A DNA stretch of 64,000 bases. It comes from Cellulosimicrobium sp. CUA-896 (GTDB lineage Bacteria; Actinomycetota; Actinomycetes; Actinomycetales; Cellulomonadaceae). The stretch lies in NCBI RefSeq assembly GCF_001942335.1, contig NZ_MKKH01000004.1, positions 1 through 64,000 on the forward strand, written 5' to 3'. The stretch's first letter is position 1; each line of letters opens with the position of its first letter. The notes under the pieces are model-generated. The model worked only from the letters and a program-made list of their open reading frames with translations, had not been told where the DNA came from and did not search any database. Both the position numbers and the translations under genes were made by a program. This document shows positions 31,404 through 42,527 of this stretch, piece after piece.

Positions 31404-32717
31404 CTACCGCGCCGGGGACGCGATCCCGTCGAGGTCCTTCACGACGCGGCCGGACTGCCACACCGCCCGGACCGTGCTCGCGTCGCCGAACGTCGCGATC
31501 GCCGACAGCGGGTCGGCCCTCGTCAGGACGAGGTCCGCGAGCTTGCCGGTCTCCACGGACCCGAGGTGGTCCGCGAGCCCGGTGGTACGTGCGCTGACGA
31601 GCGTGCCGGCATGGATCGCCCCCAGCGGGCTCATGCCCACGTCGACCAGCAGGCGCAGCTCGTCGAGGTTGGTCCCGTGCGGGACGATGCCGGCGTCGGT
31701 GCCGAGCGCGATCGGCACCCCCGCCTCGACGGCCCGTGCGACGGCGCGCATCCCGGTGTCACGCCACCACAGCTTGCGGTCGATCGCCTCTTGCGTGGCA
31801 CGCCCTGCCTGCGGGATGCGGTTCAGCGCGGACAGCGTCGGGACGAGCGTGGTGCCCCGCCCGAGCATCTCCTCGATGAGGTCGTCCGTGAGGCCGTACC
31901 CGTGCTCGATGCTGGCGGCGCCGCCGCGCACCGCCTCGCGGATGCCCTGCTCGCTCTGGGCGTGCGCCGTGACGGGCTGGGACCGGCGCCGCTTCATCTC
32001 CTCGACGATGAGCGCGACGTGCTCCTCGGGCACCCCGAGGTCGGTCGGTGCGTCGCCAGGGGTGCTCAGCCCGCCGCTGGTGCAGACCTTGATGACGTCG
32101 GCCCCGATCCGGTCGAGCCGGCGCACGGTGCGCAGGACGTCGTCCGCGGTGTCCACAACCCGCCAGCCCGGCGTCGTCGCTCGCTGCGCGTAGACGGGCA
32201 GCGAGCCGTTGGGCGCGACGGGGTCGCCATGCCCGCCCGTGGGTGACAGGAGCGCGATCGCCAGGTGCAAACGCGGCCCGTCGATGTGGCCCGCGGCCAC
32301 GGCGTTGCGGAACCCCGGGGTGAGACCGCTCAGGTCGCGCGCCGTGGTGACCCCCGCGTCGAGCGTCTGCCGCAGGGAGCGAGCCGTCGAGAAGGCCTCC
32401 TCCTCGGGGAACCAGTCCTTGACGACCTCCGGGCCGACGTCGTTGGGCATGCACGCGTGGATGTGCAGGTCGAAGAACCCCGGCATGAGGTGGTGGCCCC
32501 GGGCGTCGACGACGGTGACGTCGTCCGCGGTGCCACCCGCAGCGGTGCCGTCGGCCGACTCGCCTCGCCGCGGACCGACGTAGCCGATGTGCCCGTCGAC
32601 GATCTCCACCTCGGCGTCCGGGACCGGCGGGACGAGTGTCCCGTCGAGGAGGGTGGCCCCGACGATGCGGGTGCGTCCTCGGCCGGCCGGGGTACGGGGC
32701 AGGCGTGCGCCGGTCAT
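31404..32717 (-). CDS. Prolidase-like metal-dependent amidohydrolase
   Basis: This 437-residue protein belongs to the amidohydrolase superfamily branch containing imidazolonepropionase-like and Xaa-Pro or Xaa-Arg dipeptidases. Metal ligands are visible as FDLHIH, the probably carbamylated Lys in DVIKVCTSGG, TAHAQSEQG, SIEHGYGL and the catalytic Asp in LGTDAGIVPHG. A small beta domain formed by both termini (ATLLDGTLVPP and KLADLVLTRADPL) is complete. It is the last gene of the peptide ABC transporter operon, 59 bp after the second ATPase gene, which suggests cleavage of an imported peptide-like amide. The start at ATG 32717 lacks a strong ribosome site. Confidence 0.82.
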   Translation of the reverse strand: MTGARLPRTPAGRGRTRIVGATLLDGTLVPPVPDAEVEIVDGHIGYVGPRRGESADGTAAGGTADDVTVVDARGHHLMPGFFDLHIHACMPNDVGPEVVKDWFPEEEAFSTARSLRQTLDAGVTTARDLSGLTPGFRNAVAAGHIDGPRLHLAIALLSPTGGHGDPVAPNGSLPVYAQRATTPGWRVVDTADDVLRTVRRLDRIGADVIKVCTSGGLSTPGDAPTDLGVPEEHVALIVEEMKRRRSQPVTAHAQSEQGIREAVRGGAASIEHGYGLTDDLIEEMLGRGTTLVPTLSALNRIPQAGRATQEAIDRKLWWRDTGMRAVARAVEAGVPIALGTDAGIVPHGTNLDELRLLVDVGMSPLGAIHAGTLVSARTTGLADHLGSVETGKLADLVLTRADPLSAIATFGDASTVRAVWQSGRVVKDLDGIASPAR

Positions 32718-32776: not shown

Positions 32777-33573
32777 TCAGGCGGGTACGGGGGCGACGGG
32801 GTCGATGTCGAGCGAGAAGTCGGGGGACCCCGGGTCGGCGCTCAGGAGCGCCCGCGTGTACCAGTGCTGGGGGTCGGCGAACACGTCGCGGGCGGGCCCG
32901 GACTCGACGACGACACCGCGGTAGAGCACCACGACGTCGTCGCTGACCCGCTGCACGACGGCGAGGTTGTGCGAGATGAAGAGCATGGTCACGCCGAGCG
33001 ACTGCTTGATCTCCGCGAGGAGCTCGAGGATCTGGGCCTGGACGGACACGTCGAGCGCGACGTGATCTCGTCGGCGATGACGAGGGACGGCTCGATGACG
33101 AGGCCACGGGCGATGGCGACGCGCTGGCGCTGACCGCCCGAGAACTCGTACGGGTAGCGGTGCATGGCGTCCGCCGGCAGACCCACCTGCTCCAGCCAGT
33201 GCGCGATGAGGTCGCGGTGCCGACCGACCCGTGCGCGACGCGGGTCGACGGCCTCCGCGAGCGCCTGCCCGACGGTCTGGCGGGGCGAGAGCGACGAGAA
33301 CGGGTCCTGAGGGATCATCTGGACACGGCGGCGGTAGGCGGCCAGCTCGCGACGGCTCGCCGTGGCGACGTCGATGCCGTCGACCCAGACCTGCCCGGAC
33401 GACGGGCGCACGAGGCCCACCATCGCCTTGGCGAGCGTCGACTTCCCGGACCCGGACTCACCGACCACGCCGACGGTCCGCGAGCGGTCGACGGACAGCG
33501 AGACGTCCTTGAGCACGTGCGCCGACCCGAACGAGACGTTCAGGCCCTCGACGTTGACGATCGTGTCGCTCAT
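32777..33573 (-). CDS. Oligopeptide-type ABC transporter ATP-binding protein (DppF-like), one frameshift
   Basis: The second ATPase of the importer. It has Walker A GESGSGKST, Q-loop MIPQDPFSSLSPRQ, signature EFSGGQRQRVAIA and Walker B LVIADEITS in one frame. The rest (SVQAQILELLAEIKQSLG, switch ISHNLAVVQRV and the C-terminal HWYTRALLSADPG) follows one frame over, with the shift near 33055. The C-terminal region is typical of OppF/DppF. ATG 33573 overlaps the stop of the upstream fusion gene by four bases. Confidence 0.85.
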
Positions 33574-35314
33574 GACCGACTCCCCTCCTGGGACACGGTG
33601 GCCGGGCGGACGTCGACGGACGGCGTCGCGGCCAGCAGCTGCTTCGTGTACGGGTGCTGCACGGTGTCGACGGTGAGCCGCTCGGTGGAGGTGATCTCCT
33701 CGACGACCTCGCCGTCCTTCATGACGAGCACCCGGTCGCACAGGCGGCGGACCACGCCGATGTCGTGCGAGATGAACAGGACGGCGGTGCCGGCCTGGGC
33801 GTTCATGCGCTTGACGATGGCCAGCACCTCGCGCTGGACCGTGACGTCGAGCGCCGTGGTCGGCTCGTCGGCGATGAGCAGGTCGGGCTCGGTGCTCATC
33901 GCGACGAGATCATGGCGCGCTGCTTCATGCCCCCGGAGAGCTCGTGGGGGTGCTGGCGCAGCCGGCCCTCCGGGTCGAGCAGCAGGACGCTGCGGAACCC
34001 TGCGGCGATTCGCGCGCGCGCCGCGCGACGGGACATCCCGCGGTGCGCGACGAGCACGTCCGAGAACTGCGATCCCAGCGTGAGCGCCGGGTTGAGGGAC
34101 GTCCCGGGGTCCTGGTAGACTAGGCCGATCCGGGTCGCCAGCTCGGTGGGGGGGACCTTGCCGAGCAGGTCGGTCTCGCCGAGGGTGAGACGACCTGCGG
34201 TGGCGTGCAGCCCTTCGGGCACGAGGCGCGAGACGACCGACGCCGTCAACGACTTGCCCGACCCCGACTCGCCCACGATGCCGAGGATCTCGCCGCGGTC
34301 GATGTGGAGGGAGACGTCGCGCACCAGCTCGCGGCCGCTGCGGGCGTGCGTGACGGTGACGTGCTCGGCGGTGAGGAGCCGGCGCGTCGGGGCGCTCGTC
34401 GCGTCACCGCGTCCGGCGCGCAGGAGCCGCGCCCGAGTGCCGACGGACCGCGGGTTGGCGGCGGCCGCCAGCCCGTCGCCCACGAACAGCGCCGCGAGCG
34501 ATGTGAAGAACAGGGCGAACGCCGGCCCGACGACCAGCACGGGGTTGACCATGAGTCTGCCCAGCCCGTCCTGCAGGAGGGTGCCGAAGTCGAAGGACGG
34601 GTTCTGCGAGCCCAGGCCCACGAAGGACAGGCCGGAGATCTCCACGAGCGCACCTGCGAGCGTCTGCGTCAGGAGGATGAGCATCGGCTCGGCCATGTTG
34701 GGCAGGACGTGGCGCAGCGCGAGGCGGTGCGCGGGGACGCCGACGAGCCGCGCCTGCGAGACGAAGTCGCGTTGCGACAGACCGGCCGCGAGGTTCGCCG
34801 TGAGACGGGCGAACCCGGCGACGTTGGCGATGCCGATGGCGATCACGACCGTCGTGGCGGACTGCCCGAGGATCGCCGCGATCATGATCGCGACGAGGAG
34901 CGTGGGGTACGAGACGGCGAACTCGATCGCGCGCAGGCCGAGCTCTCGCACCCGGCGTGGCGCCAGCCAGACACCGACGCCGATCGCGATGCCCGCGAGG
35001 CCGGCGATCGCGGTCGCCGCGAGCGCCATCAGCACCGTGACGCGGGTGGCCACGAGCGTCCGGGCGAGCATGTCCCGGCCGAGGGAATCCGTGCCGAGCG
35101 GGTGGCCCGGCGCGCTGCCGAGGCCGGCGTCCGAGCTGAGGGCGGTCGCCTCGTCGGTGAGGAACAACGGGGCCAGCACGGCGACCAGCACGACGACGCC
35201 GGACATGACGAGGCCGACGACGAGCGTCCCGTTCCACGAGAACCGGCGCTTGCCGCCGCCGGCCGCCACGGGCGTCGCCGTGGCGGCCGGCGCCGCGGTG
35301 GTCGCGTCAGTCAT
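33570..35314 (-). CDS. Fused ABC permease and ATPase (DppC-DppD), one frameshift
   Basis: A single reading of about 580 residues joins a DppC-like permease (about 1-300, with LGTDSLGRDMLARTL and the coupling loop VSQARLVGVPAHRLALRHVL) to a DppD-like ATPase. The ATPase has Walker A GESGSGKSL, LVYQDPGTSLNPALT, signature ELSGGMKQRAM, Walker B LLIADEPTTALD and switch ISHDIGVVRRL. The permease-ATPase junction (NPRSVGTRARLLRAGRG) has no stop in frame, so the fusion is real at that point. A one-base loss near 33905 splits the ATPase between its signature and Walker B. Permease-ATPase fusions of this kind are annotated in other actinobacteria. Confidence 0.82.
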
Positions 35315-36384
35315 GCTTGCCTCCCAGGGTGCGGGGGTCGATGAGGCCGAGGACCACGTCGATGATCAGCGTGATGAGGATCGAGACCGTGCCGATGAGG
35401 AACACCGACGCCTGGATGACCGGGTAGTCCTTGTCGACGGCGATGGCCTGGATGACGGTGCTTCCGAGGCCGGGCCACGCGAAGACGGTCTCGACGATGA
35501 GGGCCGAGCCGAGCATCGAGGTCATGATGATCCCGGCCAGGGTGAGGGTCGTGGTGAGCAGGTTCGGCACGAGGTGCTTGGCGTAGGCGCGCAGCGGCGG
35601 GAGCCGCCAGCCCCGCGCGGTCCGCATGAAGTCCATCTCCTGTGCGACCGCCGTCTCGCGGCGCACGATCCTGGCCACGGACGAGACGCCGCCGACGGAG
35701 AGGGCGAGCACGGGCAGGACGGCCGACTCGACCGGCCCGTACGCGAGGGTGTACGCCGGTGGCAGGAGCGCGAGCCACACGGCGAACACGAGGACGAGCA
35801 GCGTGGCCTGCAGGTACGGCGGGACGGCCTGCATGAAGCCGGTGACGACGTTGAACGCCCGGTCGAGCCACCGGTTGCGGTCGCCGCGCGTGGCGATCCC
35901 GACGACGACGCCCGCGGACGTCCCACCACGAGGACGAGCGCGACCGCCGCGGCCGCGATGCTCAGCGTGTACGGGAGCGCGTTGAGGACGACCTCCGTGG
36001 CGGGCACCCCGTACCGGAACGACGTCCCGAAGTCGCCCTGCAGCACGCCGGAGACGTACTGGGCGAGCTGCGCCGTCATGGGCTGGTCGAGGCCGAGGGA
36101 CCGGCGGACCTCCTCCACCTGGGCGAGGCTCGCGTTCTCCCCGGCGATCGCGGTCGCGGGGTCCCGGGGATGAGCTGGACGATGAAGAAGGTGAGCACCA
36201 CCAGGAGGGCGATGTTCACGACGACGCCGACGAGGCGTCGCGCGAGGAACCTGCGCCACAGCGTGGTACGTGAGCCGGCGCGGTGGCCGCCGGACGCGTC
36301 GGGCCCGGTGCCCGCGGGGCCGTCGGCGGCCGTCGGGCCGCCCGTGCCGCCAGCCGGGGAGCTCGTGACGAGCTGCGTGGTCAT
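35307..36384 (-). CDS. Oligopeptide-type ABC transporter permease (DppB-like), two frameshifts
   Basis: The N-terminus from ATG 36384 carries a Gly/Pro/Ala-rich cytoplasmic leader, then the first membrane helix VVVNIALLVVLTFFIVQLIP. The family sequence goes on as GDPATAIAGENASLAQVEEV and GVLQGDFGTSFRYGVPATEV one frame over (shift near 36165), and as MQAVPPYLQATLLVLVFAVW and FMRTARGWRLPPLRAYAKHL in a third (shift near 35920). The stop overlaps the fusion gene start. The periplasmic segment and helix count fit the DppB/OppB family. Confidence 0.82.
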
Positions 36385-36435
36385 GAGGACTCCTTCAGGA
36401 GCTGGCGGGCACGGACGGCCCGGAGGGGCGGTGGG

Positions 36436-38003
36436 TCAGGAAGCGATCCGCAGCGCGGAGACGTCCCAGTAGCCCGAGAACTCGTAGGTGTTGATGCCCT
36501 CGCGAGCGATGATGTAGTGCGTGCTGGTCGCGAGCGGCGCCACGTCGACGCGCTCCAGGACCGTCTCCTGCGCGGCGACGAGGTCGGCGCACTGCTCCTC
36601 GGGGTCGGCGGTCGACAGCGCCGCCTCGAGGAAGGCCTCGCCCTCGGCGTTGTCCGAGCTCGTGTAGTTCGTCCCGCCCTCGCCGAACGACGGGCCGATC
36701 TTCGTCAGGAGCGCCTGGTGGACGAGGCCGGAGGAGTTGGTCTCACCGCGGACGGTGAGGTCCCACGTCGTGGGCTCGGTGCGCAGCTGCTGCGCCCAGT
36801 CGGCCGCGTCGAGGGACGTCACCTCGACGTCGGCGCCCGCGGCGGAGAGGGCCTCGGTGACGTAGTCGACCGCGGGCTCCCAGTTGGTCATCGTGAGCAG
36901 TCGCACGGTCGTGCCGCTCAGCACCTCGGAGGCCGCCTCGGGGTCGTAGGGCTGCAGGAGCGACTCGTCGGTCGCGACGCAGGCGAAGCCGGAGTCGGTG
37001 ACGGAGGTCATGAGGTTGCCGAGCCCGTCCAGCGCGGCGTCGTTGAACGCCGTCGCGGACACCGCCTGCGCGGCCGCCGCCCGCAGCTCCTGGGAGTCCG
37101 CGAAGACCGAGCTCGGGTCCTCGTTGAACAGGAGCGTGTTCGCGGTGCTGTTGTCCGTGACGTAGGTGAACTCGTCGCTGTCCGTGAAGCGGGTCGCGTT
37201 CGCGTCGTAGAAGCGCGCGACGTCGAGGCCGCCCGTCTCCAGCAGGTTCGCGCTCGTGTTCGAGTCGGACTCGACCGTGATGTTGATCGTCGTGGCGGGG
37301 GTGCCCTCGACACGCTCCCAGTCGGGCCAGGCGTCGTAGTCGTCGCGCAGCGTGTACGTGGCGCTCACGCCGGCGACCTGATCGGTCAGCGTGTAGGGGC
37401 CGGAGAAGGCACCTTCGACGTCGCCCGTCGCCAGGCCGTCGAGGTCGGCGAGGCCCGCGGGGCAGATGATGCCCGTTCCCTCGATCGTGACGCCGCCCAG
37501 GAGCTGGGAGTACGGCGCGCTGAGGTCGATCGTCAGCGTGCCGGACTCCTCGTCGACCGTGAACGTCGGGTCACCCTCGCCGAAGGCCAGGCTCCGCGTG
37601 TTGGTCCCGTCGGAGGCGGCGAGGTGCTCGAGCGAGTCCGCGACCACCTGGGCGGTGATGGGCGTCCCGTCCGAGCACGTCGCGTCGTCACGCACGGTGA
37701 AGACGTACGACGACGCGGACGTCGCCTCCCAGTCCGTGGCGAGACCGCGAGGTACTCGCCGTCGTCGCCCTTGCGCAGCAGCGTGTCGAAGCCGAGGCGG
37801 GCCACCGTGAGGTCGGGCGAGCTCGTGGCCGCCGACGGGTCGAACGTCGACGGCGCGTACCAGAGCACGGTGTTGAGGGTGTCGGCGGCCGCCGGGCCAC
37901 CGGTGTCGGCGCCGCCCTCCGCCTCGGTGCCGGACGAGCAGGCGGCGAGCGCGAGGGCCGCCGTGGCCGCCACGGAGGTGGCGACGAGAGATTTCCTGGC
38001 CAT
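36436..38003 (-). CDS. Family 5 substrate-binding lipoprotein of the peptide-type importer, one frameshift
   Basis: An SBP_bac_5 lipoprotein of about 520 residues with signal and lipobox ALALAACSSG near residue 21. Early family sequence (NTVLWYAPSTFDPSAATSSP) is in frame one, and the remainder is one frame over after a shift near 37740. It contains VTDNSTANTLLFNEDPSSVF and PYDPEAASEVL. The class binds peptides, nickel, or small nitrogenous compounds, so a peptide ligand is not certain. It is the first gene of a five-gene leftward operon, and an ATTGGATACA-type site lies about 70 bp upstream. Confidence 0.83.
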
Positions 38004-38071
38004 GGTGATGCTCCCGTGAGAGAGGGACGAGGTCGCGGACGTCGGACGCCGAAGCGGCGAGCCGTGCAATG

Positions 38072-38101
38072 TGTATCCAATCTAACGACACATGTATCCC
38101 G
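38072..38101. promoter_or_regulatory. GntR-regulon site upstream of the binding-protein operon
   Basis: TGTATCCAATCTA at 38072-38084 (reverse complement TAGATTGGATACA), with a second partial copy CATGTATCCC at 38091-38100. It lies 70 bp upstream of the binding-protein start in the 317-bp divergent region 38004-38320. That region is otherwise noncoding and less GC-rich than its surroundings. Confidence 0.65.
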
Positions 38102-38243
38102 AACGAGTCGCTAATGTGTCCACCGTGTTACAGAGGTGCCGCAGTCCCAGGAAGCGCGCTATTTCGCCCGTTCGATCCCTGGTGAAGATCAGGGCGCGAC
38201 GGACTGGAGGGGCGACGGCGGCGGAGTCACCACCCGACGATGG

Positions 38244-38263
38244 TCTAGATTGGATCCATTACA
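38244..38263. promoter_or_regulatory. GntR-regulon site upstream of the amidohydrolase-deaminase-creatininase operon
   Basis: TCTAGATTGGATCCATTACA includes TAGATTGGATCCA, differing by one base from the site at 38072. It is 58-77 bp upstream of the ATG at 38321, on the other arm of the same divergent region. Confidence 0.65.
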
Positions 38264-38320
38264 CCCACGTCCGGGCACGCCGTCGTGGGGAACCGACCCG
38301 CGACGCAGGAGGAAGCACGG

Positions 38321-39082
38321 ATGATCATCGACGCCTACAACACGACCCAGGACGTCCGCGGGCGCAGCGACTACCTGACGGGCGTCCGCCCGGGGCAGCC
38401 CGCGCCGCCCTACACCCCGTTCGACGCGGGCCGGATCCTCGGCCGCATGGACGCGGCGGGCGTCGACAAGGCGATGGTGTGCTCCCTCGCGCAGCGCATC
38501 GAGAACGACTTCCTCGCCTCGCTCGTCCAGGCGCACCCGGACCGCCTCTTCGGGTTCGGCCAGGTCATGCCGCAGGACGACGACGCCGAGGACCAGATCC
38601 GCCGGTTCGTCGACGCGGGCCTCGTGGGCCTCAAGCTGCACCCGAGCATGCACGGGTACCACGTGGCCGACCACGGCCTGCTCGACCCGGTGTTCGCGGT
38701 GTGCGCGGAGCTCGGCATCCCCGTGCTCATCAACGCGCTCGACGACGCGTTCTGCGCGCCGCTCGCCATCGAGGAGATCGCCAAGGACCACCCGACCGTG
38801 ACGACGATCATCGCGCACATGGGCGCGGTGTGGAACGTGCCGGAGGCGATCCTCGTCGCAGAGCGCCGGGAGAACGTCTACCTGGAGACGTCCGCGACCC
38901 TGATGGCGGACGTGAAGCGCGCGTACGCGCGGCTGGGCGCCGAGAAGATCCTCATGGGCTCCGAGTGGCCCGGCAGCGACTTCGACCTCGAGCGCATGAA
39001 GATCGCGAAGGCCGTGCCGGACGAGGCCGACCGCGCCCTGATCGAGGGCGGCAACATGGCCCGGATCATGGGGTGGGCGTGA
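38321..39082 (+). CDS. Amidohydrolase-2-like TIM-barrel protein lacking the HxH metal motif
   Basis: The 253-residue protein follows the amidohydrolase_2 (ACMSD-like) pattern: LVGLKLHPSMHGY, IIAHMGAVWNVPEA, NVYLETSATL and ILMGSEWPGSDF. The N-terminal DAHxH metal motif is replaced by IIDAYNTTQDVRG, and the usual GSD near the end reads GSEWP, so the metal site is altered. It may be a variant hydrolase, a decarboxylase-like enzyme or a non-catalytic subunit. ATG 38321 is fixed by CAGGAGGAAG. The GTG of the next gene overlaps the stop (GTGA). Confidence 0.75.
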   Translation: MIIDAYNTTQDVRGRSDYLTGVRPGQPAPPYTPFDAGRILGRMDAAGVDKAMVCSLAQRIENDFLASLVQAHPDRLFGFGQVMPQDDDAEDQIRRFVDAGLVGLKLHPSMHGYHVADHGLLDPVFAVCAELGIPVLINALDDAFCAPLAIEEIAKDHPTVTTIIAHMGAVWNVPEAILVAERRENVYLETSATLMADVKRAYARLGAEKILMGSEWPGSDFDLERMKIAKAVPDEADRALIEGGNMARIMGWA

Positions 39083-39552
39083 CGACGTCCGCACGCCCGG
39101 CTCTGACCGAGACCGTCCAGGCCATGCCTCCGGCCGACCGGAAGCTCCTCGAGACGGCGCGCTCCGTCCTGGCCAGCCGGTACGCCGCCGGCCGCCACGA
39201 GGTCGCGGCCGCCGCACGGCTGGCCTCCGGCCAGGTCGTCACCGGACTCCACGTCGAAGCCAGCCAGGGGCGCGCGTCGGTGTGCGCGGAGTCCGGGGTC
39301 CTGTCCGCCGCGGCCGTCGCAGGCGAGGAGATCGTCGGCCTGGTGGCCGTCCTGCGTCGCCCCGACGGCGCCGAGCACCTCATCGAGCCCTGCGGCGTCT
39401 GCGCCGAGATCCTTGCCGACCACTGCCCCGACGCCGCGGTCTGGGCGGCCCGGCGAGGAGCCACCGAGCGGGTCGCCGCCGCCGACCTGCTCCCGTTCCG
39501 TCACGTGCGCACCGCACGCCTCGCCCCTCCCCGGAAGGACCCTCAGTCATGA
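39079..39552 (+). CDS. Cytidine-deaminase-fold protein
   Basis: This 157-residue protein has the zinc deaminase signature: RASVCAESGVLSAA supplies Cys and the proton-shuttle Glu, and EPCGVCAEIL supplies the PCxxC pair. The substrate strand usually reading FxNAS is HVEASQGRAS, so the preferred base or heterocycle is probably not cytidine. The length and layout are close to cytidine and blasticidin-S deaminases. It is the middle gene of a three-gene set coupled by GTGA and ATGA overlaps, which argues for a pathway role with the creatininase-family enzyme and not for nucleoside salvage. Confidence 0.8.
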   Translation: MTTSARPALTETVQAMPPADRKLLETARSVLASRYAAGRHEVAAAARLASGQVVTGLHVEASQGRASVCAESGVLSAAAVAGEEIVGLVAVLRRPDGAEHLIEPCGVCAEILADHCPDAAVWAARRGATERVAAADLLPFRHVRTARLAPPRKDPQS

Positions 39553-40355
39553 CCGCACTCCCCCCCACCGGCCTCGACGTCCCCGCGCTGGCCGCCGAGC
39601 TCGGCGGAACCGGCCGCCCGGTCCTCTGGGAGGAGCTCGACTGGCCCTCCGTGCCGGCCGTCGTCGAGCAGCACCGCGCGGTCATCATCCCCGTCGGCGC
39701 CATCGAGCAGCACGGGCCGCACCTGCCGCTGAACGTCGACACCGAGATCGACCTCGCGGTCGCGACCGCCGTCTCGGCGATCACCGGCATCCCCGTGGTC
39801 CCGCCGGTCTCGGTCGGCGTGTCGGCGTCGCACGGCGACTTCCCCGGCACCCTCACCGTCCGCCCTGAGACGCTCGTGGCGGTGATGGGCGACCTCACCG
39901 ACTCCCTCTACCGCTCGGGCGTGCGGCAGTTCGTCTTCATGTCGGGGCACATCTGGAACAACGGGGCGCTCGACGTGTCGATCGAGAACCTGCGCACCCG
40001 CTATGACGACGTGCGCGCCCGGTCCGTCGGCTACGTGACCATGTACCCCGGCCCCGAGGTGGACGGCCACGTCCGGTACGGCCGCGGCCTCATGCACGCG
40101 AACTTCTTCGAGACGTCGGTCATGCTGCACCTGCGTCCGGACCTCGTGCGGATGGACCGCGCGGTCTCCCACCGCGACGTGGACTCGTTCTGGGACTACC
40201 GCATGGACCAGGTGAGCGACACGGGCGTGTGGGGCAACGACGTCGCCGACGCGAACGCGGAGCACGGCCGCGCCGAGTTCGACCGCTGCGTCGAGCGCAA
40301 CGCGCGCGCCCTGGCGGCCGCGGTGCGCGAGCCGGAGCCGGAACGCAGCCGCTGA
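39549..40355 (+). CDS. Creatininase-family amidohydrolase
   Basis: The 268-residue protein has the creatininase metal and active-site motifs: GAIEQHGPHLPLNVDTEI (Glu, His, Asp), ASHGDFPGTLTV, MSGHIWNN and HANFFETSVML. In place of the common NGHGGN it reads SGHIWNN, and HAGxxETS is HANFFETS. Family members open cyclic amides such as creatinine or hydrolyse formamides in flavin and cofactor pathways. ATG 39549 overlaps the deaminase stop. Together with a deaminase-fold enzyme and two amidohydrolases it suggests stepwise ring opening of a nitrogen heterocycle, but the compound is unknown. Confidence 0.82.
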   Translation: MTALPPTGLDVPALAAELGGTGRPVLWEELDWPSVPAVVEQHRAVIIPVGAIEQHGPHLPLNVDTEIDLAVATAVSAITGIPVVPPVSVGVSASHGDFPGTLTVRPETLVAVMGDLTDSLYRSGVRQFVFMSGHIWNNGALDVSIENLRTRYDDVRARSVGYVTMYPGPEVDGHVRYGRGLMHANFFETSVMLHLRPDLVRMDRAVSHRDVDSFWDYRMDQVSDTGVWGNDVADANAEHGRAEFDRCVERNARALAAAVREPEPERSR

Positions 40356-40416
40356 GCGACCTGTCGGCACGACCCGGACGGGCCGGCCCCTCGTGGGGCG
40401 CCGTCCGCGTCCGCCG

Positions 40417-41645
40417 TCAGACCCGGACGCCCTCCGGTGCCGGGACGAGGGGCCGCGACCGGGCGAGCCGGAGCACGGGCACGACGAGGAGCTGCGCGGC
40501 CGCGACGCACAGGAGCGCCGCGGGCGACCCCCACAGCCCGATGAGCACCCCTCCGCAGGCGGCGCCCGCCGCCATGCCCAGCGACGTCGCGGCCGAGAAC
40601 ACCCCGATCGCGGTGGGTCGCTCGCGCTCCGGCAGCGCGGTCGTGCTGAGGAGCGTCAGCGACGGGTAGAGGGGCGCGTAGCCGACGCCGAGGACGACGG
40701 CCGCGAGCGCGGCCACGCCGAACGACGAGGCTGACGCCATGACCGCGAGCCCCGCGGCGACGACGACCAGGGCGGCGCCCGTCACCCGGACGGCACCGAG
40801 GCGGTCCGGCACCGACCCGAGGGCGAACCGCGCGGCGACGACGCTCGCCGCGAAGACGAGGAAGATGCTCGACGCCCCGAGCACGCCCGTCGACGACAGC
40901 CGCGCGACTCGAGGTGCTGCACGAGGAACGTCGTGAACACTCCCTGCGCGCCCCACGCGGTGAGCGCGACGAGCGCGGGCGCACCGACCACGGCCAGGAC
41001 CGGCCCCGCGCGGCCGCCACGCCGCTGCGGGAGCGGGGCCTGCGCCGCGGGGGACGGAACGGTGCGCGTACGCGGCGGCGCGGCGACCGACGAGGCCGCG
41101 ACCAGGACGACGGCCTGCACCGCGAGCAGGACCGTCCACGCGGCGACGTTGCCCCGCGACGCGTACACGTTCTCGACGAGCAACGGACCCAGCGCGAGCC
41201 CCACCCAGACGCTGACCCCGTAGTAGCCGAAGGCGCGGCCGCGCTCCCCCGGTGGCGACGTGGCGGAGACCCACGCCGTCGTGGCCACCGTGATCCCCGC
41301 GTTGCCCACGCCGTACAGCACGCGGGCCGCCGCGACGCTCGGCGTCGTGAAGACCACGACCATCGCGCCGATCGCCAGGACGGCGACGAGGGCGCTCACG
41401 AGCGTGACGGCCCGGGGCCCGAACCGACCTGCCGCCATGCCGACGAGGGTCATGCAGAGGGCACCGGTCAGGCTCGCGACGGAGACGAGGGCGCCGGACG
41501 CGGACTCGTCCGCACCCAGGAGGTCCGGAGCGGCGCGCGCGATGAGCGGTGCCGTGGCGGCGAGGACCGTGTAGTTGGCCGTCGCTGCCAGGACGACGAG
41601 CCAGAACCCCATCGAACGCGTACCACGGGCTCGGCAGGGGGACAC
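40417..41645 (-). CDS. MFS transporter of the GntR regulon, one frameshift
   Basis: A twelve-helix MFS protein of about 410 residues. The first nine helices, from FWLVVLAATANYTVLAATAP through LVALTAWGAQGVFTTFLVQH, are in one frame. The last ones, from GVLGASSIFLVFAASVVAAR, are in the next, with a shift near 40905. The loop RFGPRAVTLVSALVAV is the family signature region. GTG 41645 is chosen because GAGGAG is upstream, and ATG 41612 is the alternative. Two regulon sites lie 25-60 bp upstream. It is probably a second importer or an exporter for the pathway compound. Confidence 0.8.
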
Positions 41646-41670: not shown

Positions 41671-41703
41671 GCGTATCCAATACGCACTAGATTGGATCCA
41701 ACA
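41671..41703. promoter_or_regulatory. Paired GntR-regulon sites upstream of the MFS gene
   Basis: GCGTATCCAATACGC (41671-41685) is a palindrome with perfect 6-bp arms. CTAGATTGGATCCAAC (41688-41703) contains the near-palindrome ATTGGATCCAA. The two are adjacent and contain ATTGGATAC and ATTGGATCC, the core shared by all sites of this cluster. Confidence 0.7.
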
Positions 41704-41746: not shown

Positions 41747-42460
41747 TCAGCCCCGGATCGTCGTGGACGACCTCAGCTCGTACCAGCGCGCGACCTGCTC
41801 GCCGACGTTGAGCACGTGGCGGCGCATGAGACGCGCCGCGAGGTCGCCGTCCTCCGCGGCGAGCGCGTCGATGATCTCCACGTGCTCGCGGTGGTTGCCC
41901 TCGCGGTGCTTCGCGTTCTCGCGCAGCAGCATCGCCGGCACGTTGCGCGGGTAGGACAGCAGGATGTCGTTGAGCAGCCGCTGGAGGCGTCCGTTGTTCG
42001 CGGCCTCGTGGATCGTGGAGTGCAGCGCGTAGTCGTTCGCGGCGTCGAGCTCGCGCACCCGCATCGGCGTCGAGCGCTCCGCTGCCGTGCGAGCCAGGTC
42101 GTAGAGCGCGTCGTTGGACTCCCGCATCATGGCGATGGTGCGGGCCGACAGCCGCGTCGCCGCCCGGCGGGCGGCGAGCGCCTCGAGCTCGGCACGGACC
42201 TCGTACGTCTCGCGCACCTCCCACGGGACGGGGACGCGCACCACGGCGCCACGGTGGGGGTGGATCTCGATGAGACCGCTCGTCTGGAGCTGGCGCAGGG
42301 CCTCTCGCACCGGCGTGCGGCTCGTCCCGAACTGCTCGGCGAGGTCCGCCTGACGCAACGGCTGGCCGACCGGGATCTCGCCGGAGAGGATCTGGTCGCG
42401 GATCCGGGCGGCGAGGCCGTCGACCAGTGCGGCGCCGTCCCTCGCCTTCGTCGTCGTCAT
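41747..42460 (-). CDS. GntR-family regulator with FCD ligand domain
   Basis: The 237-residue protein has the GntR winged helix (RIRDQILSGEIPVGQPLRQA, then EQFGTSRTPVREALRQLQTS) and an FCD effector domain with metal-type residues in YALHSTIHEAANN and REHVEIIDAL. FCD regulators typically bind carboxylates and release a short palindrome near ATTGGATACAAT. ATG 42460 follows GAGGAG. A TTG at 42523 would extend the frame but lies within the operator-like site, so it is rejected. It is the likely controller of the catabolic regulon at 31.4-41.6 kb and of itself. Confidence 0.87.
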   Translation of the reverse strand: MTTTKARDGAALVDGLAARIRDQILSGEIPVGQPLRQADLAEQFGTSRTPVREALRQLQTSGLIEIHPHRGAVVRVPVPWEVRETYEVRAELEALAARRAATRLSARTIAMMRESNDALYDLARTAAERSTPMRVRELDAANDYALHSTIHEAANNGRLQRLLNDILLSYPRNVPAMLLRENAKHREGNHREHVEIIDALAAEDGDLAARLMRRHVLNVGEQVARWYELRSSTTIRG

Positions 42461-42513: not shown

Positions 42514-42527
42514 ATGTATCCAATCAC
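42514..42527. promoter_or_regulatory. GntR autoregulatory site
   Basis: ATGTATCCAATCAC (reverse complement GTGATTGGATACAT) lies 54-67 bp upstream of the GntR start. It matches the core of the sites at 38072, 38244, 41671 and 41688. Confidence 0.6.

Follow-up and report, generated by a model that had tools for sequence, protein, structure and literature searches.

We describe an actinobacterial gene cassette in which three overlapping genes, coding for an amidohydrolase-2 family protein (AH2), a zinc deaminase of the CDA fold and a creatininase-family hydrolase (CRE), are preceded by an operator-like site that recurs in front of neighbouring transporter and regulator genes and, in one family of bacteria, in front of a urea carboxylase gene. 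The cassette was analysed in a 64-kb stretch of the Cellulosimicrobium sp. CUA-896 genome (the window), and related loci were compared. The trio is very probably part of a catabolic unit, whose direction we infer.

Structure and distribution of the cassette

All three reading frames of the trio are intact in the window (Table 1); AH2 starts with an ATG that has AGGAGG upstream, and CRE starts with an ATG as well. A preliminary description of this DNA had placed the three genes and their GTGA and ATGA overlaps correctly. The 13 loci that hold both AH2 and the deaminase (12 genomes of the order and Cellulomonas sp. B6) all have a four-nucleotide overlap between these two genes, which reads GTGA in 11 and ATGA in 2. 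At the deaminase/CRE junction, present in 12 loci, a four-nucleotide overlap is seen in six, an 8-nt one in L016, and in L021 a 7-nt one, or a 4-nt one if counted from a GTG, while L022-L025 have none. As the loci are of common ancestry, these counts are not independent.

Table 1. Features of the cassette and its surroundings in the window
Feature	Coordinates	Strand	Remarks
AH1, amidohydrolase-1 family	31404..32717	-	Xaa-Pro dipeptidase-like, below cut-off; intact
Second ABC ATPase	32801..33573	-	Frame broken near 33058
Permease-ATPase fusion	33576..35314	-	Frame broken near 33902
ABC permease	35310..36384	-	Frame broken twice (35921-35957 and 36157-36169) relative to Cellulomonas sp. B6
Family 5 solute-binding protein, dipeptide-type ABC importer	36439..38003	-	Frame broken near 37746
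Operator-like site GATTGGATACA	38072..38082	-	Before transporter operon
Operator-like site GATTGGATCCA	38248..38258	+	Before trio
AH2, amidohydrolase-2 family, 253 aa	38321..39082	+	PF04909; without HxH (MIIDAYNT)
AH2/deaminase start/stop overlap, GTGA	39079..39082	+	13/13 loci
CDA-fold zinc deaminase, 157 aa	39079..39552	+	GTG start; HVEASQGRAS strand; CAE/PCGVC
Deaminase/CRE start/stop overlap, ATGA	39549..39552	+	6/12 loci
CRE, creatininase-family hydrolase, 268 aa	39549..40355	+	GHIWN replacing GHYEN
MFS transporter	40417..41612	-	Frame broken near 40887 (40887-40896); B6 homologue
Operator-like site GATTGGATCCA	41690..41700	+	Palindromic core; before MFS
GntR/FCD regulator	41747..42460	-	Proposed operator binder
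Operator-like site GATTGGATACA	42515..42525	-	Before GntR

The matches listed for 297 genomes of the order place AH2, with at least 80% identity, in 12 (own included). These 12 also have the deaminase, which is found in G128 too (35%), and CRE, at 69% or more and again with its own included, is in 11 of them, G205 being the exception; no genome in this list has CRE at that level without AH2. Counting the window protein, 13 deaminase relatives reach E 1e-15 or better, and 12 of them adjoin AH2. The overlaps had earlier been taken to imply matched synthesis; the conserved coupling, the near-perfect co-occurrence and the operator-like site upstream support action of the trio as a single unit.

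The distribution of the cassette across actinobacteria is patchy: among the matches listed, 4 of 47 genomes are positive in the family of G009, 1 of 39 in the family of G336 and 4 of 396 (own included) phylum-wide. A scan of genome contigs with a single protein as query returned one locus, that of Cellulomonas sp. B6 (L027), where the gene order is identical to that of the window and the transporter genes are intact. Viral contigs gave no match; plasmid matches to AH2 (Niallia, 33%) and CRE (Alicyclobacillus, 33%) stand in other contexts and were set aside, and two of the 12 plasmid records matching the deaminase were inspected. An AH2 relative in G148 (36%) and CRE relatives of 34-41% in G051, G066, G113, G185 and G205 (C2:1253395) were not counted as orthologues. 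Search cut-offs differed (1e-15, 1e-30 and 1e-25), and the genome searches scored the best candidates; the gene caller, based on codon-position GC, missed genes in the lower-GC loci L017, L018, L026 and L038 and others elsewhere, for instance UAAP1 in L090, gaps that were partly filled from open reading frame lists and by tblastn.

The deaminase is the least conserved protein of the trio in all five pairs of loci compared. Between the window and B6, a simple counting method gives dN/dS of 0.13 for AH2, 0.15 for CRE and 0.32 for the deaminase; its ratio is the higher one in three of the five pairs, the ratios are alike for L021/L022, and for L017/L018 synonymous change is saturated and dN/dS not measurable. 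All measurable values lie below 0.35, which fits purifying selection.

Divergent from the trio is an operon for a dipeptide-type ABC importer, with AH1 as its last gene, and beyond the trio are situated the MFS gene and the GntR/FCD regulator; the preliminary description had left out these genes, as well as the operator-like sites and the association with enzymes of urea and allophanate metabolism. Six frame breaks relative to the intact B6 homologues fall within 32801-41612, all in importer and MFS genes (those of the binding protein, both permeases, the second ATPase and the MFS transporter), and none in AH2, the deaminase, CRE, AH1 or GntR. Completeness of the genome is 83%, and another of its genes, a biotin-carboxylase-like one, is likewise split across frames, so assembly error is a possible cause of the breaks; decay of the importer is another. 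The cassette of the g51 group (L021-L025) also holds genes for an alpha/beta hydrolase, placed between the transporter genes, an arylformamidase-like cyclase, a gamma-glutamyltransferase-like protein and an Amidohydro_3 protein, and a TauD dioxygenase or M19 dipeptidase is encoded near some of these loci. Genes for E1 alpha/beta-like 2-oxoacid dehydrogenase lie near AH2 of the more distant clade in three genomes (L036, L037, L073), in G336 at a distance of about 15 kb.

Family traits and departures of the three enzymes

The earlier assignment of AH2 as an amidohydrolase holds at the level of the family, the match to PF04909 reaching 115.6 bits (4.8e-33) against a gathering score of 26.4. The HxH of metal-dependent amidohydrolases is absent from strand 1, which reads D[AS]YN in all 16 AH2 homologues, so the protein is not a standard member; AHMG and an acidic residue in GSEWP/GTDWP are retained. 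The best solved relative is the BB4693-like amidohydrolase (PDB 3irs, 2.2e-12), which is listed as uncharacterized and reads GTAYP where AH2 has its acidic residue in GSEWP. Predicted structures of AH2 and CRE, made from alignments of two rows each (the window and B6), were discarded at mean pLDDT of 44.8 and 48.6.

The deaminase matches PF00383 barely above the cut-off (5.4e-06), and the zinc motif of the CDA fold ([CH]AE, PCxxC) is kept as CAE and PCGVC in 14 of 14 sequences. Its characteristic strand reads H[VL]EASQGRAS in proteins of the window type and HV[ED]GS.RRS in those of g51 and G205; L026, where the gene does not adjoin AH2, has the shorter HLGSRRVN. The strand HVEASQGRAS, which had been pointed out as altered, is indeed present, along with an intact zinc motif, but it is not unusual for its branch: a Peribacillus protein above the PRK06848 cut-off (207 versus 131) has the strand HIEAYIGRITVCAE, containing HIEAYIGR, so this kind of strand belongs to a wider branch. 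This PRK06848 ‘cytidine deaminase’ branch (NF005314) has the H-[VI]-E-A strand and the zinc motif in common with the window deaminase, which at 82.6 bits remains below its cut-off of 131; against the cytidine deaminase model TIGR01354 it scores 51.1 bits, the cut-off being 113.65, with H-V-E replacing N-V-E. The only other deaminase match in the window genome has a normal CNVENAAYG strand and sits between what we take to be nucleoside-type ABC permease and pyrimidine-phosphorylase-like genes. With such an enzyme among salvage-like neighbours elsewhere in the genome, the trio deaminase is distinct from the housekeeping cytidine deaminase, in line with the first reading of the locus.

One locus, L038, bears upon the deamination step that had been proposed at the outset. 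Here a single run comprises an NMT1 binding protein, AH2, an ATPase, two permeases, a TRZ/ATZ-type aminohydrolase and CRE, and tblastn found no deaminase relative in the 17-kb stretch. The model nearest to the aminohydrolase is 8-oxoguanine deaminase, at 167 bits versus a cut-off of 532. As the place of the deaminase is thus filled by an aminohydrolase of another fold, deamination is plausible, and we read the TRZ/ATZ-type enzyme as one that may perform the same step by other structural means, at this one locus.

CRE belongs to the creatininase family (PF02633, 1.1e-62, 212 bits), and EQHGPH..VD, GH and FETS, which we take to be its metal-site elements, are kept in all 13 CRE sequences. GHYEN is replaced by GH[IMA]WN in each of the 13, and the window protein moreover reads GYVTMY for SYWDFV and YGRGLMH for LGWDIEH. 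The creatininase residues E122, W154 and W174, by what we assume to be their numbering and roles, are not matched in the window CRE, at positions which vary among solved mutants, and it has neither of the tryptophans mutated in solved creatininases. Its score is 123.9 bits against a creatininase (TIGR04448) cut-off of 235, and 120.4 against 172 for the mycofactocin peptidase MftE (TIGR03964). Lacking the creatinine-site residues, CRE is unlikely to have creatinine as its substrate. Known creatinine degradation, by creatininase with creatinase or creatinine deaminase, shares with the cassette a creatininase-family enzyme, a deaminase and urea as the likely product, and the cassette differs from it in the missing creatinine-site residues, in the CDA fold of its deaminase and in AH2, which is unrelated to creatinase, a protein of the M24 family.

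Operator-like sites and linkage with urea and allophanate genes

The sequence GATTGGATMCA occurs exactly four times in the window (expected 0.00; 0/100 shuffles), each time 55-80 nt before a gene: that of the binding protein, AH2, MFS or GntR. Its core, TTGGATMCA, is present 29 times across the 256 kb of the 13 cassette loci, with no locus lacking it, and leads cassette units in all 12 close relatives. With ‘upstream’ taken as the range from 330 nt ahead of a start to 60 nt past it, the starts being hand-entered and in part approximate, all 29 sites precede local transcription units; two of them, in G205, precede transporter genes of another type. The core was not found before AH2 in L019 and L020; L016 lacks it in front of GntR, MFS and allophanate hydrolase, and L038 has one site, inside a gene. 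The local GntR/FCD protein is probably what binds this putative operator.

A further 17 stretches (266 kb) hold the core nine times; they were picked for urea genes or flanks and hence are not a random control. One of the nine is a duplicate (overlap of L071 and L020), one is the in-gene site of L038, and seven precede candidate regulon genes. In G177 (L089, 2357 and 5738) these are an aldehyde dehydrogenase gene and a run in which UAAP1 and UAAP2, each scoring above its cut-off, are joined by allophanate hydrolase, and in G107 (L090, 10718 and 15938) an aldehyde dehydrogenase gene and a run in which UAAP2 and allophanate hydrolase were called; neither run includes a guanidine or urea carboxylase. 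Of the three G205 sites, one leads a gene pair for a binding protein and an M24 peptidase, another an amine-oxidation run, and the third a GntR relative together with a reductase. No core was found in the remaining 12 stretches (182 kb, including L036 and L037), nor at the three urease loci examined.

An operator-led run of G205 (L092 8177-14043, L071) codes for an EgtE-like PLP enzyme (below cut-off), an N-methyltryptophan oxidase (above cut-off), a gamma-glutamyltransferase-like protein (49% to that of g51) and a copper amine oxidase, with a LigXa-like Rieske enzyme and a glutamine-synthetase-like protein nearby. G201 (L091) and G205 (L072) each have a full cluster of the guanidine type (UAAP pair, carboxylase and allophanate hydrolase) with no operator, and that of G205 was treated as separate from the cassette.

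In the four loci of the g21 family the gene directly before AH2 is a urea carboxylase, in each case above the cut-off; one, scored as a protein, reaches 1530 versus 1304 bits. Allophanate hydrolase is encoded near GntR in the same four, one scored at 579 versus 511 bits and three found by tblastn. Core sites precede the urea carboxylase in all four loci, and a looser form of the core precedes allophanate hydrolase in three. Of the 47 genomes of this family 13 have the carboxylase: all four with AH2 and 9 of the 43 without it. By a published rule (PMC11410670), Asp at K. lactis position 1330 marks a guanidine carboxylase and Asn the urea type; UAAP1 and UAAP2 are the carboxyguanidine deiminase families. 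All four g21 carboxylases have Asn at this position and by this rule are of the urea type; a separate carboxylase of G205 has Asp.

Outside g21, allophanate hydrolase is above the cut-off in 6 of 10 AH2 genomes (own left out), and in L036 and L037 its gene overlaps AH2 by 4 nt. The window genome (G000) has neither urea carboxylase nor allophanate hydrolase above the cut-off. Urease is above it in 8 of 15 AH2 genomes and in none of the four g21 genomes, G205, G336 and G630; being widespread, urease is weak evidence by its presence. An Rfam scan of the window and 15 loci, a set without L089 of G177, gave 0 matches and thus no riboswitch.

Two known routes can be compared with these arrangements. 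Both enzymes of the urea amidolyase pathway, urea carboxylase (with the urea-type Asn) and allophanate hydrolase, are present in the four g21 cassettes, where they accompany the deaminase/creatininase/amidohydrolase set under a common operator, whereas the window genome has neither of the two above the cut-off. The core-led UAAP1, UAAP2 and allophanate hydrolase of G177 resemble the guanidine carboxylase pathway, which runs through guanidine carboxylase and carboxyguanidine deiminase to allophanate hydrolase, but no carboxylase lies in that run and the g21 carboxylases have Asn rather than Asp. Taken together, the G177 run, the g21 carboxylases and L036/L037 suggest that the unit handed on may vary by lineage, urea in some and carboxyguanidine or allophanate in others, and the end product may differ accordingly.

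A possible pathway and its alternatives

We propose that a dipeptide-type ABC importer would bring in a nitrogen-rich, probably ring-containing compound, that the deaminase would turn an amidine-like carbon of the ring into a carbonyl by removing its amino group, and that CRE and AH2 would hydrolyse the deaminated product, an N-C-N unit leaving as urea or an allophanate-level compound. Urea would be consumed by urease or, in the urease-less g21 hosts, by the co-regulated urea carboxylase and allophanate hydrolase, and the whole cassette would be governed by a common operator, probably through the local GntR/FCD protein. To this sequence of import, deamination, hydrolysis, release and assimilation we give an even chance. 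That the product is urea or an allophanate-level compound is rather probable, the N-C-N release being suggested by the gene linkage; the order deaminase, CRE, AH2 is a guess that we would sooner doubt than trust. The reading first given for the trio, deamination and ring opening with the product passed to an amidohydrolase, is partly supported: the trio forms a unit and a deamination step is plausible, while ring opening by CRE is a conjecture.

Several observations count against the proposed pathway. G205 has AH2 and the deaminase with no orthologous CRE, and neither deaminase nor CRE was found beside AH2 in L036 and L037; core sites are missing before certain units in L019, L020 and L016 and altogether in L036 and L037; G336 has neither urease nor allophanate hydrolase above the cut-off, and the window genome neither urea carboxylase nor allophanate hydrolase; and the lower conservation of the deaminase is odd for a core step.

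An unlikely alternative, though the strongest of those we weighed, is that CRE hydrolyses a creatinine-like ring, giving a guanidino acid from which AH2, in the manner of creatinase, would release urea and an amine, while the deaminase acts elsewhere on the molecule. It would agree with the family of CRE, with the urea enzymes in the operon and with the core site leading UAAP1/UAAP2 in G177; against it speak the absent creatinine-site residues and low creatininase score of CRE, and the conservation of the deaminase slot, which in L038 is taken over by an enzyme of another fold. Less probable is that the cassette serves to break down or detoxify a peptidyl nucleoside, for instance blasticidin S, which would be taken up by a peptide importer, cut by peptidases and deaminated at its cytosine moiety. 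The best solved relative of the deaminase is blasticidin-S deaminase (8.2e-10), the importer is of the dipeptide type, and gamma-glutamyltransferase and M19 dipeptidase genes occur in or beside g51 loci, but a cytidine deaminase matches equally well (8.8e-10), L038 has an NMT1-type importer with its TRZ/ATZ-type enzyme, and AH2 with its urea carboxylase would be left without a role.

Of similarly low probability is a triazine- or biuret-type pathway, in which, after ring deamination and ring opening by CRE, AH2 would hydrolyse biuret or an acylurea and so supply allophanate hydrolase with its substrate. The direct coupling of AH2 to allophanate hydrolase in L036 and L037 would suit it, while the urea carboxylase beside AH2 in four loci indicates urea, and to our knowledge natural triazines are few. 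Hardly credible, finally, is an ordinary pyrimidine-salvage deaminase that stands here by chance: it would account for the CDA fold and zinc motif, and it is opposed by the normal cytidine deaminase elsewhere in the window genome and by the adjacency to AH2 of nearly all deaminase relatives.

Beyond the proposed sequence of steps, we put forward as a tentative suggestion, which falls somewhat short of an even chance, that the cassette represents a new cyclic ureide or cyclic guanidine pathway, in which an AH2 without HxH would use a new kind of chemistry to free the N-C-N unit in the form of urea, carboxyguanidine or allophanate, within a GntR regulon whose operator, TAGATTGGATMCA, is common to several actinobacterial families. 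No description of the cassette was found among the titles and abstracts listed from the open-access literature, subscription papers being outside that scope. The enzyme families and the nitrogen outlets are already known; their combination, the HxH-less AH2 within it and the regulon appear to be new.

The cassette gives three loosely annotated types of enzyme, ‘cytidine deaminase’, ‘creatininase’ and ‘amidohydrolase’, a defined operator and a probable nitrogen outlet. Annotations of these types could be revised accordingly, and the regulon offers a way to find the substrate. If the proposed pathway is true, it would constitute a further entry route into urea and allophanate metabolism, beside those from guanidine, triazines and purines.
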